Shown here piece after piece: positions 20,310 to 28,351 of a stretch of DNA of 64,000 nt (position 1 is the stretch's first letter; each line of letters starts with the position of its first letter). The DNA lies in the NCBI RefSeq assembly GCF_029784135.1, contig NC_073744.1:16649441-16713440 (forward strand), given 5' to 3'. A program made the position numbers and the translations under genes. The stretch comes from Toxorhynchites rutilus septentrionalis (Eukaryota > Arthropoda > Insecta > Diptera > Culicidae). Under the pieces are notes generated by a model that had not been told where the DNA came from, searched no databases, and worked only from the letters and a program-made list of their open reading frames with translations.

Positions 20310-20314
20310 AGCAT
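20310..20314. repeat. Target-site duplication, left
   Basis: AGCAT immediately outside the left LTR, matched by AGCAT at 27528-27532. Confidence 0.9.
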
Positions 20315-20450
20315 TGTGGCTGCAGGGTATCGTGCTGATTACGCTGGAGGAAAGATCCTCTCTGGAGCCACCAATTGTGGCTGCAGGGTATCGTGCTGAT
20401 TACGCTGGAGGAAAGATCCTCTCTGGAGCCATCAAATGTGGCTGCAGTTC
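20315..20450. repeat. 61-bp tandem repeat at the LTR terminus
   Basis: TGTGGCTGCAG recurs at 20315, 20376 and 20437, a period of exactly 61. Each unit contains CCTCTCTGGAGCCA(C/T)CA, the complement of the primer-binding site next to the real LTR end. The right LTR has the same units at 26468, 26529 and 26590. Confidence 0.9.
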
Positions 20451-20844
20451 GAGATCGTGCTGATGACACGAAGGGAAAGCCCTTTACTGGACGCTATGTG
20501 GTAGGCCAGATCACGTAGAGCGCATAACGAGTATGCGCCTACTGGTGCGATCCGGTAGTACCGCGTCACTTGGGAGTTTGGCCGGGCGGAGCCAAGGGAA
20601 GGAAAAGGGAGAGGAAGGGTGGTTGGAATTTCGGATCTTTGGAGGAGGGGTGTTCAATACTTACCAGCGCTTGTTGCGCTGGGATCTGCCGGCGATGATG
20701 TCCAGGGTGCTCCCGATGGTGTCCAGGATGCTCGGGCGATGTCCAGGGTTGTGATACGTTTATGACAAAAAAAGAGGGGTTCGGTACTTCGCCACGACGC
20801 TCCTACGTCCGTGGTATGGTTGAGAGTGTCCAGTTGAGAGTGCG

Positions 20845-20874
20845 TTTATTCTGTTCAAGTTTTTCTCTTATATA
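20845..20874 (-). promoter_or_regulatory. LTR TATA box and polyadenylation signal (3' LTR)
   Basis: On the element's strand TATATAAG (20874-20867) is followed 16 bases later by AATAAA (20850-20845). In this copy the AATAAA would end the element's transcript. The spacing puts AATAAA about at or just before the expected start site, so it may lie in U3. Confidence 0.6.
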
Positions 20875-21365
20875 CAGACATTGCCTTCTTATCTACCCCA
20901 GAAGGGCGTAGCATAAGAGAGAGAAAATTACAATTATTTATTCTAAGCCAGACGGGCGAACGAGGGATGATTATTAACACGCTCGCAGGCGTGTTATCTT
21001 TTCCTCTCCGTTTTATTACTTATTGTCCTAGCTCGGAGATAGGCTCCGTTTATAGCACCCATAGTGCTCTCTTTTTGGGATTTCTCCCGTCCTTCGGTAT
21101 TTACGATCGGAGATAGGCTCTGATCGTAAACACATTACGTCGTTTTGCTTATTTTTGTTTTGTTCTCCTTCCCGGCGGGTTATCGCTGGCCGGAGGATTT
21201 TTATGATATTTAGGTTTTCAGCTAGCAATAATCGCACTTCGGAAAAACCTCATTAGTTACGATAAAGCCACTGCGCAAGCTATTCTGTGTATTTAGGATA
21301 GAGCGCGATCTAAGCATCCGCTCTATCGTTCTCGCCATGAATCACGCTCTAAAGGCATGATCCGT

Positions 21366-21426
21366 GCGGCGACATACCGGCCCTCGTAAATCGCGTAAGG
21401 CAGATTTACCAATTGAGCTACGCCGC
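21366..21426 (-). other. tRNA-like fold across the internal/3' LTR junction
   Basis: Minus strand: GCGGCG (21426-21421) pairs with CGCCGC (21371-21366), the first bases of the LTR. Inside, GTAAATC (21409-21403) pairs perfectly with GATTTAC (21392-21386) around TGCCTTACGC. TAGCTCAATTGG matches a tRNA A box. The 5' half looks like a Val-type tRNA, but the 3' half has no B box, so it is not a tRNA gene. Confidence 0.5.
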
Positions 21427-22094
21427 ATCTGTTTCTAATAATTTTTTCTTCTATGCTTCTGATGCTGTATCTTTTATTACTGTATAATTCGCAATTGTTT
21501 CATCTTATATTCTCTTTTCAATATTATGTTTTTCTTACATTCAATTTCCTAACCTGAAGTTATACAATGCAATTCGTTTGCTATGAGCGGATGACTTCCG
21601 TTTATTCTTCATACATGGTGTGTTATAAATTCATTCTTTGCTTCGTTACAATTTATTAGCCACTTTGCCTTCAGATTCATTTACAATGCAAATCCTATTC
21701 ATTTTAGCTTTGTGTTACACTTCATTTTACTCTCGCAGGAGTATTCAATTTTCAAATTCAATACTTCTTCTATCCATAGAAGAGTCTTCAACTTTATGTA
21801 CTTTAATAGCCATACAACGGCGCCTAATTGCTTCTTTCACTGAACAAATTATATTTTTTTTTTACTATTACATTAGACGACATATCTTCTCGTCAGTTTA
21901 TGCAACCCTTTGTTGCTTATATTTCTTATTCATTGTCAGATTCCTCATTTTGACTACAATTATTTCATATTCAATTATTTTCTTCTATTTTACATTTTGT
22001 GTACTTATGGTCTAACAGAGTTTTAAATCACTTTTTCTCTCCAATTCTTCGGCATGCCGCCTTGCTTCATTGAACGTCCCTCCAATGCTTGGTT
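21427..22094 (-). other. 3' non-coding region of the retrotransposon
   Basis: About 670 AT-rich bases between the stop codon and the tRNA-like segment. I see no domain in any frame. The plus-strand frame at 21638-22015 is low-complexity and not credible as a gene. Confidence 0.6.
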
Positions 22095-25000
22095 TTAAAG
22101 CGCTGTGTCTTCTAATTGTTGCCGGTTCAATAGGTTGTCCATTCGGATATGGACATCGGGTCCTGCTGTGGCTCTGGATCTGGTGCAGCATCTTCGTCTG
22201 CAGCAACGTAGATAAATGATCCCGATTATAATCATTAGTATGCTTACGAAAAGGGCGGCGTTCCTCCAAAGATACTTCGATTTCGGATGGAAGGGATCCA
22301 AACTGTTGTACACGGTTATCATAGCGTTGTTATCGTAGGGATTATCGGGCTTCGGCTCCACCACATCTTTTACGGTGTCATTGAATTCGTCCAATAGGTG
22401 ATCGGCCACCTGGTATTTAGATTTGAAGTATGTTGCAATCTTCTTGTTCATGCCATTTAAACTTGCATGTATCGTTTTGTTGTTGGATTGTATACGGCAA
22501 TCTGGCTGGAGAGTTACTACTGCTGCCTCATAAGGTGGTGACATTACCACGTTGTCGCAATGTATAACTATTGCCTTTGTATCGGATGCATAGTATAAAA
22601 CGGTATTAGGAGTGGACAGTGTCTCCATCATAGCGTAAGGCGTGGTTAACAGTTTTGTTGCACATTTGCGGGTACTTGCGATATGCAGTATGACAGCCGC
22701 TACGCAATCCACTTCCTTACTCAGTTCTGGTTGAACCGTAATTAAATGCGTATCATTCAGTTTTGTTAGTTCGATCGATGGGTAGAAGAAGTCTTGGTTG
22801 TGGCCTACCGCGATGCGATCATGTTCTGTTACAATAATTGAGCCATTCTCAGCCCGTGGGATCGGTATTATCTTAAATACCTCGAACTCAACTTTGTTGA
22901 TGACAACACTCGTCATGGTAATTATGAGGGAGCCGTTGACTACACGCGTGTTGTATTTTACGGCTGATGGGTGATCCAGGACAATGTAACCAGTTGGCAA
23001 CGCTTGTGAAATGTTTTTTCTGGTTTGGGCTAGTTCGTCGACGGACAAAGGAAACGTTCGAACTTTCCTATATCTATTCAACGTTCCATCGATAACTTCT
23101 CGTGCCAATATCGTGGTTTCTAACATCGTTGTTCGTAACCTTTGAACCTTATCCGCAGAATATAATTGTTTTAATTGAGTCATGTCTTTGTACAATTTAT
23201 AGTATCTCTCGTTAAGCTGTTCTCCCATTTTGGACGCCTTGGTATTCATTTTTACCATTGACTCCGATATTTGGTGAATTTTTTCGTCTTCATGAACCCT
23301 CATTGCCTGTAGCTCGTTTTCCATATCGTCGCTACCAAATATTAAGTCCGCCAAAAAACCGAAGAACCCTTTGCTTCGTTTAGTTCTCGTTGTCTGCTTG
23401 ATCTCATCAATCGCATCATCGCATAAACGTTCAACAGATGTTGCAATTTGCTCTAGGAGAGAGTCTTCGATGACAAACTCCATGTCTTTCATCGCTACTG
23501 TCACATTATTCCGTATCGAGTTAATTACTTCAATGTCTTCATCGGGCACTACGTTGGTTTGTATATTCGTTTGCCATATGCCTCTATGTAATAAGCACGT
23601 TCCTTCATGGTCGAACATTAGACCGTCTTTGTCAACGGGTTTTATGGATATAGCGTTGATCAACGTGAACGACATTACGAACAACATCATTATTTTCAAT
23701 ATACGTGAGATGTTGAACCAAGATTTAGAAATGCCTTTTGTTGTAGTCTTATTTCTACGTCTTTTTTTTCGCGTTGATTTTTTTGATTTATCTTCGGTCG
23801 AGGTTATCAGCATTACGTTGTTAGAACTCGCGGTGGTATACTTGTTGACCGGTTCTAAGGGCAAGGGGTTGTCGTTGACTCTTATTGGTTGTCTGATGCT
23901 AAATTCATCGATCGAGAAGTGCGCAGCCATCATATCTCGTAGTTCTTTATCGTGTTGCAATAGTTCATGATCGTTTTGATAAATTGATCTGACATTACCG
24001 AAAATAAACCATCCAAGCTTACTTCGGACTGCTATTGGGTCATTGTCACTTCCCCTTCTTGTTTCCATGGCGGTAAGCAAATGGCTTTGATTCAGCCCTA
24101 TGAGAATTGTTGGCCTTGCAAGCTCGTAGCTTTCGATCGGAAGGTTTTCCAAATGCGGATATTTTGTAGCCATTGCTTTGTAGTTCATTGTCTGAGTCGG
24201 AAGTTGTAAGTTTTTAATGGTTCTTACACCGTCAAGTCGGTACGACCTTCTGGACGACCCCTGAATGCGAACTTGTACTTTTCTACTGTTCAGCTCGTTT
24301 CGAGACACGTCCTGTGTCCATTTTAATTGTAGTGGTTCTTCTTTGCCGTATAGGTCCAAGGAGTTTGCCATTTCCTCATCTAGCAATGTCAGGGAAGACC
24401 CTGTGTCTAGGAAGGCATATGTATCGACTGAATGCCTTCCGTGTTGAAGTGTTACTGGAATCACCTGGTAGTATATCTCGTTTGCTGAGGACTTGTGAAT
24501 ATTGCAGTTGGCTTCAAGCGGAACTGTAGCGGACGTATTACGAGGTGTTGGTTCCATGTCTGGATTCGAGTGTAACATTCTGTGGTGGTGCTTGTTACAT
24601 CCACTCAAGCCGCACCTCCTAGATCGTCTGCAATCTTTAACCATATGTCCGGTGCCTAGACATCCGAAACATATTTTACATTGTACTGCCAATCGACATC
24701 TTTTTTGGATGTTGGAGTTCTTAAATTCCGTGCAATCGAAGATTTTATGGTTATTCGAGCAAACCGGACATTTCATGCGTGGCATCTCTTGATGGACATG
24801 TATCTGGCTTCTAACTGTAGAAGGTAGAGGAGAAGCCATATTCCTCATTATTTTGGCGTGAGGTTTCAGCCAGTTACTCATTTCTTCTAAAGATGGGGCA
24901 TCACCAGTCGTCGTTCTATGGCGTGTCCATTCTATTTGCAGGTTATAAGGTAGTCTCTTAACTAGGTCTTCTATTAACCTCGCATCTAGTAGGTAACCTC

Positions 25001-25952
25001 TTTGATTTATGATCGTCATGTTTGCCACCATATTTTCTAAAGCATCTGACATTTCGATTATTATTGATCTACTTTCTCTTTTAAGCTTCTGTAGATCGTG
25101 CAGTAGTTCCTCATATATGAATTTAGGGTTTCCGAAATTTTCCTCTAGTCTCTCTATTATACTCGGAACATTTTCCGAGTTTATAAATAGTTGCTGCACG
25201 CTTCTAGCTGCGCGTCCTTCAAGGGCAGCTTCAAGTCTGGAGAGATTTTCATGATTGGAAAACGCACATTCTCTCGTGCTGACTTCGTAGATCCTTTTGA
25301 ATTTAGCCCAATCTTTGGGCGACCCGCTGAATTTTGGCAAGGGAGTCAAAGCTTGCCTCTTCATTAGAATCGTAAAATCTCCATGCTGTGGAGCTGGCAT
25401 CATTGCACTCTGCTCCCAGCCAATTGATGGACCGGATCTCATTGGTAGTGGTGTTTGAATCGTTGCTCGGTCACGTTGTTGCCCGGAGATATTGATTAGG
25501 GGTTCAGTTGACTGCGCTTGCGCCGGAGAGCATGGTAATTCTGTTTGTCGCTGTGTTGCTATTGTCGTTGCGCCCACGACTAAAGCGTTGAGTGATGCCT
25601 GCATTGTTACTATTTCCTTTTTTAATGTGGTTATGTTGTTGCGTTCGCTAACATGCATCTCAGCTAGTTGTGTAACTAGATTCGTCAGCTCCTCTATCTG
25701 TTTTTGTTCCCTCGAATTAGTTGAGGGATGAGACGCTGCAGGTGCCTGTGCCTTTCCCTCACTTTCGTTTGTTTTGGTAGGGGAACAAAGCGAGCATACT
25801 AAATAGGTTTCCTCTTCAGTGGGTGTATGTCCTACACAGGAATGATGATAATTCCTTTTGCACTGTCTGCATTGGACCAGATTGTCTAGTTCAATTTTCT
25901 TGCCACATGCATCACAGCACGGGCGTGATGATCTCGTAAAGCTTGATATCAT
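22095..25952 (-). CDS. Gag-protease-Env fusion polyprotein of a BEL-like element
   Basis: A single frame of 1285 residues. Residues 13-56 form a PHD-type Cys/His finger. About 85-120 are heptad-like. About 203-345 match the BEL gag domain DUF1759 (LPKFSGSPKDWAKF). 395-453 hold Cys/His zinc knuckles. About 497-655 are the DUF1758 retropepsin, with DTGSS at 516-520 and KLGWFIFG at 645-652. Around 690-745 the frame passes through a Lys/Arg-rich linker, where pol should start, into an envelope-like protein. That part has a hydrophobic signal segment about 750-767, a basic RTKR at 856-859 expected for furin-type cleavage, a Gly/Phe-rich fusion-peptide-like stretch at 860-876, a long helical region about 878-960, a transmembrane segment about 1229-1248 and a Cys/Arg tail. 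The layout suggests the baculovirus F / errantivirus Env family (Pfam Baculo_F); no search was run. No pol motif is present. Several N-glycosylation sequons lie in the ectodomain. The start at 25952 gives the PHD finger its full context. Confidence 0.9.
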   Translation of the reverse strand: MISSFTRSSRPCCDACGKKIELDNLVQCRQCKRNYHHSCVGHTPTEEETYLVCSLCSPTKTNESEGKAQAPAASHPSTNSREQKQIEELTNLVTQLAEMHVSERNNITTLKKEIVTMQASLNALVVGATTIATQRQTELPCSPAQAQSTEPLINISGQQRDRATIQTPLPMRSGPSIGWEQSAMMPAPQHGDFTILMKRQALTPLPKFSGSPKDWAKFKRIYEVSTRECAFSNHENLSRLEAALEGRAARSVQQLFINSENVPSIIERLEENFGNPKFIYEELLHDLQKLKRESRSIIIEMSDALENMVANMTIINQRGYLLDARLIEDLVKRLPYNLQIEWTRHRTTTGDAPSLEEMSNWLKPHAKIMRNMASPLPSTVRSQIHVHQEMPRMKCPVCSNNHKIFDCTEFKNSNIQKRCRLAVQCKICFGCLGTGHMVKDCRRSRRCGLSGCNKHHHRMLHSNPDMEPTPRNTSATVPLEANCNIHKSSANEIYYQVIPVTLQHGRHSVDTYAFLDTGSSLTLLDEEMANSLDLYGKEEPLQLKWTQDVSRNELNSRKVQVRIQGSSRRSYRLDGVRTIKNLQLPTQTMNYKAMATKYPHLENLPIESYELARPTILIGLNQSHLLTAMETRRGSDNDPIAVRSKLGWFIFGNVRSIYQNDHELLQHDKELRDMMAAHFSIDEFSIRQPIRVNDNPLPLEPVNKYTTASSNNVMLITSTEDKSKKSTRKKRRRNKTTTKGISKSWFNISRILKIMMLFVMSFTLINAISIKPVDKDGLMFDHEGTCLLHRGIWQTNIQTNVVPDEDIEVINSIRNNVTVAMKDMEFVIEDSLLEQIATSVERLCDDAIDEIKQTTRTKRSKGFFGFLADLIFGSDDMENELQAMRVHEDEKIHQISESMVKMNTKASKMGEQLNERYYKLYKDMTQLKQLYSADKVQRLRTTMLETTILAREVIDGTLNRYRKVRTFPLSVDELAQTRKNISQALPTGYIVLDHPSAVKYNTRVVNGSLIITMTSVVINKVEFEVFKIIPIPRAENGSIIVTEHDRIAVGHNQDFFYPSIELTKLNDTHLITVQPELSKEVDCVAAVILHIASTRKCATKLLTTPYAMMETLSTPNTVLYYASDTKAIVIHCDNVVMSPPYEAAVVTLQPDCRIQSNNKTIHASLNGMNKKIATYFKSKYQVADHLLDEFNDTVKDVVEPKPDNPYDNNAMITVYNSLDPFHPKSKYLWRNAALFVSILMIIIGIIYLRCCRRRCCTRSRATAGPDVHIRMDNLLNRQQLEDTAL

Positions 25953-25965
25953 TATTCCTGAGTGA

Positions 25966-26158
25966 GGAGCCTGGTTGCCGTCACTCGATGTTTAAACTGT
26001 GTTATAATGCGCAAGTGGCGAGGCGCCTGGTTGCCTTCGCCTTGTCTTAACCAAGCGTGGCGCCTAGTTGCCTACGCTGATTTCAAACGTTGCACAATAT
26101 TCGTCTTCCGGCCCTCGTGACCGGATTACAGTTGATGTTGACGAGGCGCCTGGTTGCC
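25966..26158. repeat. Four-copy GGCGCC-containing motif in the retrotransposon leader
   Basis: GGCGCCTGGTTGCC or a one- or two-base variant occurs at 25966-25979, 26022-26035, 26059-26072 and 26145-26158, between the 5' LTR and the start codon. In the element's sense it reads GGCAACCAGGCGCC, with a palindromic GGCGCC. A packaging or dimerisation role is only a guess. Confidence 0.8.
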
Positions 26159-26446
26159 TTCGTCCAACTATGCCTGACTGGCGATCGGTCTGTTTATAAA
26201 GCTGGACTTGTTTCAACAAGATGCCGATTTCTACGGCCTAATTTGTCCGTCTTTCAGGACCTAATTTCTGTTTCTTGAAATGCGCAATTTGCCTCTTGGC
26301 TAAATGGTGATGTCCACAGACAACCTCACCTTGTTCGTCTTTACAAGACCGAACCTCTCCGTTCAACGACGGGCGCAAATCAATTTAACAGGATTCTCAA
26401 CTCAACCGAGCGTGTTGTGAGTTCGTACAGTGTCTTTAGAAAAAGA

Positions 26447-26467
26447 CTCCTCTCTGGAGCCACCAAA
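26447..26467 (-). promoter_or_regulatory. Primer-binding site
   Basis: Directly after the 5' LTR end (26468) the element's strand reads TTTGGTGGCTCCAGAGAGGA. TGG at its start would pair with a tRNA CCA end. I could not name the tRNA. The same 5' word, TGGTGGCTC, follows the probable LTR at 56368-57451. Confidence 0.65.
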
Positions 26468-27527
26468 TGTGGCTGCAGGGTATCGTGCTGATTACGCTGG
26501 AGGAAAGATCCTCTCTGGAGCCACCAATTGTGGCTGCAGGGTATCGTGCTGATTACGCTGGAGGAAAGATCCTCTCTGGAGCCATCAAATGTGGCTGCAG
26601 TTCGAGATCGTGCTGATGACACGAAGGGAAAGCCCTTTACTGGACGCTATGTGGTAGGCCAGATCACGTAGAGCGCATAACGAGTATGCGCCTACTGGTG
26701 CGATCCGGTAGTACCGCGTCACTTGGGAGTTTGGCCGGGCGGAGCCAAGGGAAGGAAAAGGGAGAGGAAGGGTGGTTGGAATTTCGGATCTTTGGAGGAG
26801 GGGTGTTCAATACTTACCAGCGCTTGTTGCGCTGGGATCTGCCGGCGATGATGTCCAGGGTGCTCCCGATGGTGTCCAGGATGCTCGGGCGATGTCCAGG
26901 GTTGTGATACGTTTATGACAAAAAAAGAGGGGTTCGGTACTTCGCCACGACGCTCCTACGTCCGTGGTATGGTTGAGAGTGTCCAGTTGAGAGTGCGTTT
27001 ATTCTGTTCAAGTTTTTCTCTTATATACAGACATTGCCTTCTTATCTACCCCAGAAGGGCGTAGCATAAGAGAGAGAAAATTACAATTATTTATTCTAAG
27101 CCAGACGGGCGAACGAGGGATGATTATTAACACGCTCGCAGGCGTGTTATCTTTTCCTCTCCGTTTTATTACTTATTGTCCTAGCTCGGAGATAGGCTCC
27201 GTTTATAGCACCCATAGTGCTCTCTTTTTGGGATTTCTCCCGTCCTTCGGTATTTACGATCGGAGATAGGCTCTGATCGTAAACACATTACGTCGTTTTG
27301 CTTATTTTTGTTTTGTTCTCCTTCCCGGCGGGTTATCGCTGGCCGGAGGATTTTTATGATATTTAGGTTTTCAGCTAGCAATAATCGCACTTCGGAAAAA
27401 CCTCATTAGTTACGATAAAGCCACTGCGCAAGCTATTCTGTGTATTTAGGATAGAGCGCGATCTAAGCATCCGCTCTATCGTTCTCGCCATGAATCACGC
27501 TCTAAAGGCATGATCCGTGCGGCGACA
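26468..27527 (-). repeat. 5' LTR of the BEL-like element
   Basis: 1060 bases, starting TGTCGCCGC at 27527 in the element's sense and ending CTGCAGCCACA at 26468. TATATAAG at 27027-27020 is the probable TATA box, and AATAAA follows at 27003-26998. It contains the same 61-base tandem units as the 3' LTR. Confidence 0.93.
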
Positions 27528-27532
27528 AGCAT
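27528..27532. repeat. Target-site duplication, right
   Basis: AGCAT immediately outside the right LTR, the match of 20310-20314. Confidence 0.9.
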
Positions 27533-27724: not shown

Positions 27725-28030
27725 GCACCCAAACTAGCGGTGGCAGAAAACATTTCATCTTCGCAGAAAAAATGCTTTTTCGTGTACTGAAGGGCGAAAT
27801 GAGCAAATAAAATCATCTGTTTCAAAAGCTTTAAAATTTCTGTGTGTATGGGAGGAGACATCCTGTTTTACACAACCACGCTATCCACATAGCTACTGGT
27901 GCTGTTGCATAAATGCGTGATAATATCACACTTCATTACAAAATGAAGCTGGAAAGTGTTTTCTAAGAGTAAAAAGGAGAGTATAAATGTGAACCTATAC
28001 CCTTTTCGGTTTGGGCCATGTATGTGGCAA
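27725..28030 (-). repeat. Dispersed tRNA-like repeat, family copy B
   Basis: The reverse complement of copy A (18110-18555), with a perfect A box TAGCTATGTGG on the minus strand near 27890. The B-box part is missing, replaced or deleted after the head. The long TA microsatellite starts right at its upstream end. Confidence 0.65.
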
Positions 28031-28037
28031 AGTATGC

Positions 28038-28335
<298 letters not shown>

Positions 28336-28351
28336 CAACTGATTTACCACT

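Follow-up and report, generated by a model that had tools for sequence, protein, structure and literature searches.

Retroviruses and long terminal repeat (LTR) elements are usually treated as single-segment entities, and copies that lack pol as dead ends or parasites. BARE-2 is a coding-competent non-autonomous LTR element, deficient in gag, that depends on a relative in trans. The closest precedent for the element described here is provided by the Athila families of Arabidopsis that carry gag and env without pol; their frames are intact and under purifying selection, and trans-mobilisation and recombination with pol-bearing families have been inferred for them (Marco and Marin 2008, PMC2410132). 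Among BEL/Pao elements (surveyed in PMC3118150), roo of Drosophila is BEL-type and carries gag, pol and env in one 7083-nucleotide (nt) frame (PMC3087523), and the "Anakin" Pao elements of mosquitoes carry a chuvirus glycoprotein between their LTRs (PMC7642597). The present analysis concerns a 64,000-nt stretch of the Toxorhynchites rutilus septentrionalis genome (the window; NC_073744.1, positions 16,649,441-16,713,440, assembly GCF_029784135.1). An LTR element on its minus strand, at 20315-27527, encodes Gag, protease and an envelope-like protein in a single frame and lacks pol. We are fairly confident that it is a young copy of a long-lived pol-less Gag-protease-Env BEL/Pao lineage, mobilised in trans, which shares particles and termini with Gag-Pol partners in a functionally bipartite arrangement.

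Structure and copies of the pol-less element

The two LTRs (20315-21374 and 26468-27527) are identical over all 1060 positions and AGCAT flanks the element on both sides, in agreement with an earlier note on this DNA, which had described 1060-base LTRs without an indel and a 5-bp target duplication. The uninterrupted 1285-codon gag-protease-Env frame reported there was also found. Pfam matched DUF1759, the BEL-type gag domain, at residues 208-346 (E 2.3e-15), and aspartyl protease and PHD/C1 below threshold only; recognizable motifs are a weak PHD/C1-like finger around residues 9-56, zinc-knuckle-like motifs at 395-441 and a DTGS protease motif at 516. The C-terminal half was named Env from its layout, which comprises a hydrophobic stretch (746-773), RTKR at 856 leading into SKGFFGFL (856-867), a hydrophobic C-terminal stretch (1227-1253) and eight N-glycosylation sequons, all from residue 747 onward. 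No reverse transcriptase (RT), RNase H (RH) or integrase (IN) appeared in the Pfam scan of the element, as the note had stated, and its remaining frames do not exceed 199 aa. Pao-type pol (Peptidase_A17 model, RVT_1, DUF5641) is absent here and present in a partner with the same LTRs, L021, described below. The LTR pair, the 5-bp duplication and a site resembling a primer-binding site (PBS) are those of BEL/Pao elements. Judged by its sequence, the element is a derivative of BEL/Pao and not a complete member, and gag, pol and env do not all stand in one frame as they do in roo. Its parts are as follows.

20310-20314, no strand: target-site duplication AGCAT, left copy, from sequence comparison of the flanks
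20315-21374, minus strand: 3′ LTR, 1060 bp, 0 differences from the other LTR
21375-22094, minus strand: 3′ non-coding region, 720 nt, of which the last 332 nt (positions 389-720) are common to the Gag-Pol partner L021 at 94%
22095-25952, minus strand: Gag-protease-Env single frame, 1285 codons, uninterrupted
22095-23720, minus strand: Env part, residues 745-1285, with an internal signal-like stretch, RTKR/SKGFFGFL as cleavage and fusion-peptide-like site, and a C-terminal transmembrane-like stretch; homologue in L037 (2321-codon family)
23721-23882, minus strand: junction or linker where RT, RNase H and integrase are absent; equal spacing in most family copies
23883-25952, minus strand: Gag and protease part, residues 1-690, from profile matches and motifs
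25953-26467, minus strand: 5′ leader, 95.9% identical to L021 over 506 nt
26448-26465, minus strand: probable PBS, TGGTGGCTCCAGAGAGGA, adjoining the 5′ LTR, from position and sequence only
26468-27527, minus strand: 5′ LTR, 1060 bp, whose 3′ end contains 61-bp tandem units repeating the PBS-like sequence
27528-27532, no strand: target-site duplication AGCAT, right copy, from sequence comparison of the flanks

Env has a clear homologue in this genome, at the C-terminal end of a frame of 2321 codons (identity 42% over 430 residues and 39% over the alignment). The order in that frame is Gag-Pol-Env; it was read as two pieces, one with gag, protease and RT, the other with a DUF5641-like tail and Env. 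The window Env has no relative in Pfam or PDB. Pfam, including its baculovirus F and errantivirus-type Env profiles, gave no match for it, nor for the Env of the 2321-codon family or of two older relatives introduced below (lineage B and C34), and resemblance to that type is limited to the furin-like site and the fusion-peptide-like layout. No Env relative was found among 4999 candidates from the protein collection, and a second search of 4122 candidates, with polyproteins above 2249 aa outside the candidate range, returned the element's own protein P0001 only. Four proteins annotated without pol domains (P0004, P0021, P0022 and P0028) did not match the window env. An AlphaFold2 model of Env built from five sequences had a mean pLDDT (per-residue confidence) of 37, too poor to use.

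Copies were sought in the 902.6-Mb assembly (514 contigs). Only the best candidates of each genome search were scored, and the counts given here refer to these. A gag-protease search (64 of 4199 candidates scored) yielded 67 rows, 35 of them at least 95% identical to the window over at least 667 of the 690 residues; 28 of the 35 lay in frames of 1297-1328 codons, one in a frame of 1287 and six in shorter frames. Seventeen further pol-less copies were fetched. Together with the window they make 18, of which 16 (window included) encode the 1285-aa protein and two, L013 and L015, are broken. Every one of the 20 insertions fetched with both ends (17 Gag-Env, two Gag-Pol and one mosaic, L022) has its own 5-bp target duplication. 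Sixteen LTR pairs were compared: 13 showed no mismatch and three showed one, the LTRs of L023 having in addition a 61-column length difference, while those of L027 are unequal (997 versus 1049). Since the copies are near-identical and have their own duplications and near-identical LTR pairs, the pol-less elements have transposed many times and recently. Such repeated, independent insertion of one pol-less structure characterizes a non-autonomous, trans-mobilised LTR element, and the earlier suggestion of a pol-less derivative that multiplied in trans was thus borne out.

The target duplications contradict the idea of a host-domesticated gag-env gene amplified by duplication rather than retrotransposition. 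P0001 is indeed one copy annotated as a gene by NCBI, and one insertion (L024/L025, C2:36141-49734) holds a tandem array of three LTRs and two internal Gag-Env regions; against this, LTRs, a PBS-like site and a 5-bp duplication occur at each of the 20 insertions, and we regard a host gene as extremely improbable.

Some copies depart from the common structure. At two further places, L028 and L029/L030, the stretch read showed one LTR and nothing of the internal region. A third kind of element, again with these LTRs, is L022 (C3:92471039-92478947; counted in element sense, from 1870). In it a frame of 489 codons, whose N-terminal part is unlike gag and has no Pfam match, runs into a signal region resembling that of Env (77% identical in DNA over 161 nt), and a window-type protease-Env half follows. 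It may represent a further segment or a capture. The 61-bp units with the PBS-like sequence at the LTR 3′ end (20315-20440 and 26468-26593 in the window) vary in number, with zero, one or two extra units among copies and fewer in other copies than in the window; this variation, including the difference between the two LTRs of L023, suggests priming at alternative PBS copies. Beside the element, at 28024-28339 of the window, lies a (TA)n repeat of about 310 bases.

Three diverged relatives retain the same organization. Taking the window type as lineage A, they are L033 (lineage B) and L034 and L035 (lineage C, hereafter C34 and C35), with Gag-Pro-Env frames of 1278, 1288 and 1293 codons and protein identities to the window of 77.5%, 68.6% and 69.3%, respectively; the pol-less junction is at the same place in all.

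Reciprocal Gag-Pol partners and exchange of ends

Comparison of termini and coding content shows that a reciprocal Gag-Pol element without env, much rarer but alike at both ends, partners the window lineage. L021 carries the same LTRs as the window element (99.3% and 99.6%), the same leader (95.9%) and the final 332 nt of its 3′ non-coding stretch (94%); its single 1873-codon frame encodes Gag-Pro-RT-RH-IN and ends without env. The gag genes are 91.5% identical in DNA, with 607 of 687 residues the same, and the likeness is uneven (92-100% at nt 540-1440, 81-92% before, 56-91% after). A second copy of this type, L026, has a pol 99.9% identical and is frameshifted. When the L021 RT was searched for (103 of 3772 candidates scored), three rows stood at 93-100%, and no other exceeded 63%; the third of the three is an old copy with interruptions. 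The earlier note had made the element dependent on a full-length partner and expected an element of that kind with the same LTRs. A pol-bearing partner with the same LTRs does exist, but L021 and the frameshifted L026 are Gag-Pol without env, and the scored rows contained no full-length element with the window LTR or the window env type.

The same division is seen in a second pair, made of L035 (Gag-Env) and L039 (Gag-Pol), whose frame stops after DUF5641 without env. Blocks of LTR and leader are 98.6% (212 nt) and 97.0% (1083 nt) identical, L035 having about 130 nt extra in this region; the corresponding blocks of L038, an interrupted copy like L039, are 98.2 and 97.6% identical to L035. Per 90-nt bin, gag of L035 is 90-100% identical to that of L039, and 88-100% to that of L038, up to nt 720. 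At the 3′ end, 637 nt are 99.4% identical and the remaining LTR 96.2%; the elements' own LTR pairs are 99.8% identical. Pol-bearing partners with matching termini are thus L021/L026 for the window lineage and L038/L039 for L035, and in both pairs the ends and part of gag are common and the swapped part is pol or env. The LTRs of the two pairs do not align with one another, leader stretches alone aligning. Two complementary elements with shared termini would be expected of a bipartite retroelement, and both pairs show this feature.

The Gag-Env cassette has sat on two different pairs of termini, whose relatives are found in separate Gag-Pol families, because L034 and L035 share the cassette but differ in their LTRs. 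Gag of these two elements is 92-100% identical per bin from nt 450 to 1890 (81-83% in the last bins) and their Env proteins are 97% identical. The LTR of L034 matches the LTR region of a 1762-codon Gag-Pol family at 83.7% over 1368 columns (one copy read). This family is abundant, accounting for 30 of the 103 RT rows scored (P0007; L048/L050); there is no env in P0007, and the LTRs of 1263 bp are 100% identical in the copy read.

An exchange between the two kinds of element of the first pair was captured in L012, which has window-type LTRs and env. Of the informative sites between -53 and 432 of its gag, 58 of 59 are of the Gag-Pol type, whereas 131 of the 132 between 465 and 2030 are of the Gag-Env type; upstream, it is of the Gag-Env type at 8 of 8 sites between -309 and -85, with one site at -487 of the Gag-Pol type. 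On these sites L012 is a clean recombinant of the Gag-Env and Gag-Pol kinds. Such a mosaic is expected if both RNAs enter one particle, and L012 suggests that they are co-packaged.

Origin of the junction, age and selection

How the pol-less junction arose was approached through env. Scoring 80 of 264 candidates produced 81 rows, which fall into two groups: 50 have an identity of at least 72%, and 31 stand at 40%, of which 19 lie in 2321-codon frames. A gag row lies within 8 kb upstream of 48 of the 50; the spacing is 163-187 nt in 41 of the 48 and equals the window's own 163 nt in 33. The seven larger spacings mostly reflect env rows starting later, the exception being C3:254167314 (1869 nt), which was not read. 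Two elements gave two env rows each, and the two rows without upstream gag are L022 and an env fragment. These counts rule out an assembly error at the junction; env as an unrelated nested insertion was likewise rejected, since A, B and C all read from gag into env without a change of frame and through linkers that are homologous.

A recent in-frame deletion of pol, with a missed full-length Gag-Pol-Env element of the same LTRs as the real driver, would fit the existence of one-frame Gag-Pol-Env relatives (2321 codons, env about 40% identical) and the scoring of only 80 of the 264 env candidates. Against it, the 41 closely spaced gag-env pairs point to the pol-less form, and no env row of at least 72% lay within 8 kb of any of six partner-type RT rows (three per partner type, the pair-2 rows being assigned to type by a gag identity of 60-63%), the next env rows dropping to 40%. 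The junction is moreover common to A, B and C and therefore not recent. We consider this explanation improbable.

Still less probable, in our estimate, is the earlier proposal of a retrocopy of a spliced env RNA, in which splicing from a donor downstream of protease to an acceptor upstream of env removed pol. In its favour, gag-protease and env are fused in frame, the LTR contains a donor-like GTAAGT (26812-26817), and the junction has a possible acceptor in the form of a CCCCTTGCCCTTAG tract. However, a donor in the LTR would take out gag, yet gag is present, and the tract was not seen in the sister lineages B and C; nor was a parent found among the scored rows. Derivation of the linker from a pol tail was also discarded: its weak BLAST match to the tail of L021 was no better than shuffles, of which 152 (B), 367 (C34) and 1021 (A), each of 2000, reached the same score.

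Age has to be considered separately for the insertion and for the lineage. The note called the element young, and this is right for the window insertion; the pol-less lineage is old, because the diverged Gag-Env lineages keep the junction with a low ratio of non-synonymous to synonymous substitution rates (dN/dS, Nei-Gojobori). For env this ratio is 0.116 for A-B and 0.100 for both A-C34 and A-C35, and for gag 0.166, 0.086 and 0.064 in the same order; diverged Gag-Env pairs with dS above 0.4 gave 0.06-0.17 for gag and 0.10-0.15 for env. Lineage B env is itself mosaic, its first half being closer to A (88%) and its second to C34 (95%). Among 14 young copies, without the recombinant L012, 18 synonymous and 21 non-synonymous codon variants were counted (ratio 0.32), and with L012 32 and 49 (ratio 0.43).

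These figures bear on the possibility that the Gag-Env element is a one-sided parasite which borrows pol and returns nothing, its env being dispensable and surviving only through the youth of the copies. Copying in trans should need just the LTR, the leader and packaging signals. Gag-Env copies outnumber the pair-1 partner, the young copies differ in env by 5 synonymous and 9 non-synonymous codon variants (ratio 0.5), which alone is no demonstration of selection, and other diverged rows carry stops. A dispensable env should decay, though, and three diverged copies are open throughout their 1278, 1288 and 1293 codons, with the low env dN/dS quoted above for pairs beyond dS 0.4. We lean against the parasite while taking it seriously as a possibility. 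The data do not establish the note's word parasitic and fit mutual dependence at least as well.

Direct observation covers the structure of the elements, how many copies there are, that they inserted recently and independently, the reciprocal partners, the ends in common and the recombination. What would join them is the following scheme. Gag-Env RNA would be packaged in particles built of Gag from both element types, after which the Gag-Pol partner would provide, in trans, the RT that copies it and the integrase that inserts it. Template switching in the shared particles would keep the termini matched and would sometimes give the Gag-Env cassette the ends of a different Gag-Pol family. With less certainty, Env from the Gag-Env element may also coat the shared particles, giving a two-segment, retrovirus-like genome, and the ancestor may have been a roo-like one-frame Gag-Pol-Env element. 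More speculatively, signal peptidase could cut the fusion at its internal hydrophobic stretch and so release Env, or Env could be translated from a spliced RNA. In its fullest form the scheme describes a bipartite animal retroelement, a roo-like genome split into Gag-Pol and Gag-Pro-Env segments that are co-packaged, co-transmitted, matched by template switching and long selected on both parts, the envelope segment changing polymerase partners by way of the partner's termini; we put this forward tentatively, as a reading that may well prove too strong.

Several observations weigh against the trans-mobilised, partner-sharing lineage favoured here. Pair 1 counts three Gag-Pol rows (one intact, one frameshifted, one old and interrupted) versus 35 Gag-Env rows; pol might come from a different source, and other one-frame Gag-Pol-Env families in the genome could supply it too. 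Thirteen gag rows have no downstream env row, six being partner-type Gag-Pol and seven not read. In pair 2, gag identity falls to 72-94% at nt 720-1080 and to 62% or less beyond, the rest of gag-protease being unlike. The third pair, L034 with the 1762-codon family, is weak: its LTR is about 84% identical, its 3′ end aligns piecewise at 80-86%, and about 510 nt present in that family are missing from the 3′ LTR of L034. Lineage B has no identified Gag-Pol partner, no genome search having been made with its LTR. As for selection, dN/dS is blurred by the nearly saturated dS of the A-C comparisons and by mosaicism of the sequences, and the very similar pair C34-C35 gave 0.43 for env and 0.25 for gag.

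Comparison with known systems

In the titles and abstract openings searched, no animal gag+env family without pol turned up, although one may still be in print; Athila alone was found for pol-less gag+env, and nothing joined multipartite or segmented genomes with retroviruses and retrotransposons. As far as this literature goes, several features are new: the occurrence in an animal BEL/Pao element, the fusion of the coding parts into one frame, reciprocal env-less partners whose ends match, the recurrence in a second pair, and the switch to other ends. Coding capacity appears to be divided between two complementary lineages with shared ends, in a pattern that recurs in a pair with unrelated LTRs. 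This offers a system for asking when a parasite turns partner, how segmented genomes begin and what selects env in an element that does not copy itself.

BARE-2, unlike the window element, is not known as a Gag-Env element with a reciprocal Gag-Pol partner. The env of Anakin is of the chuvirus type, and the window Env does not match PF24664. The same genome also holds a 2465-codon Gag-Pol-Env family (19 of the 103 scored RT rows), whose env in the one copy read (L045, C3:1335700-1338100) is a chuvirus-type fusion glycoprotein as in Anakin (PF24664, E 2.9e-170). As described, roo is full-length, whereas the window element has no pol and its partner no env; likened by architecture and not by env sequence, roo is the likely model for the ancestor. 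Like the Athila families, the window family has gag and env without pol, intact frames, purifying selection and recombination with pol-bearing relatives. Unlike Athila, a plant element with separate gag and env open reading frames, it is an animal BEL/Pao element with a BEL-type gag and one fused Gag-Pro-Env frame. It differs from Athila in two further respects: it has reciprocal env-less Gag-Pol partners with the same LTRs, leader and 3′ end, and a near-identical cassette stands on two different LTR sets in T. rutilus.

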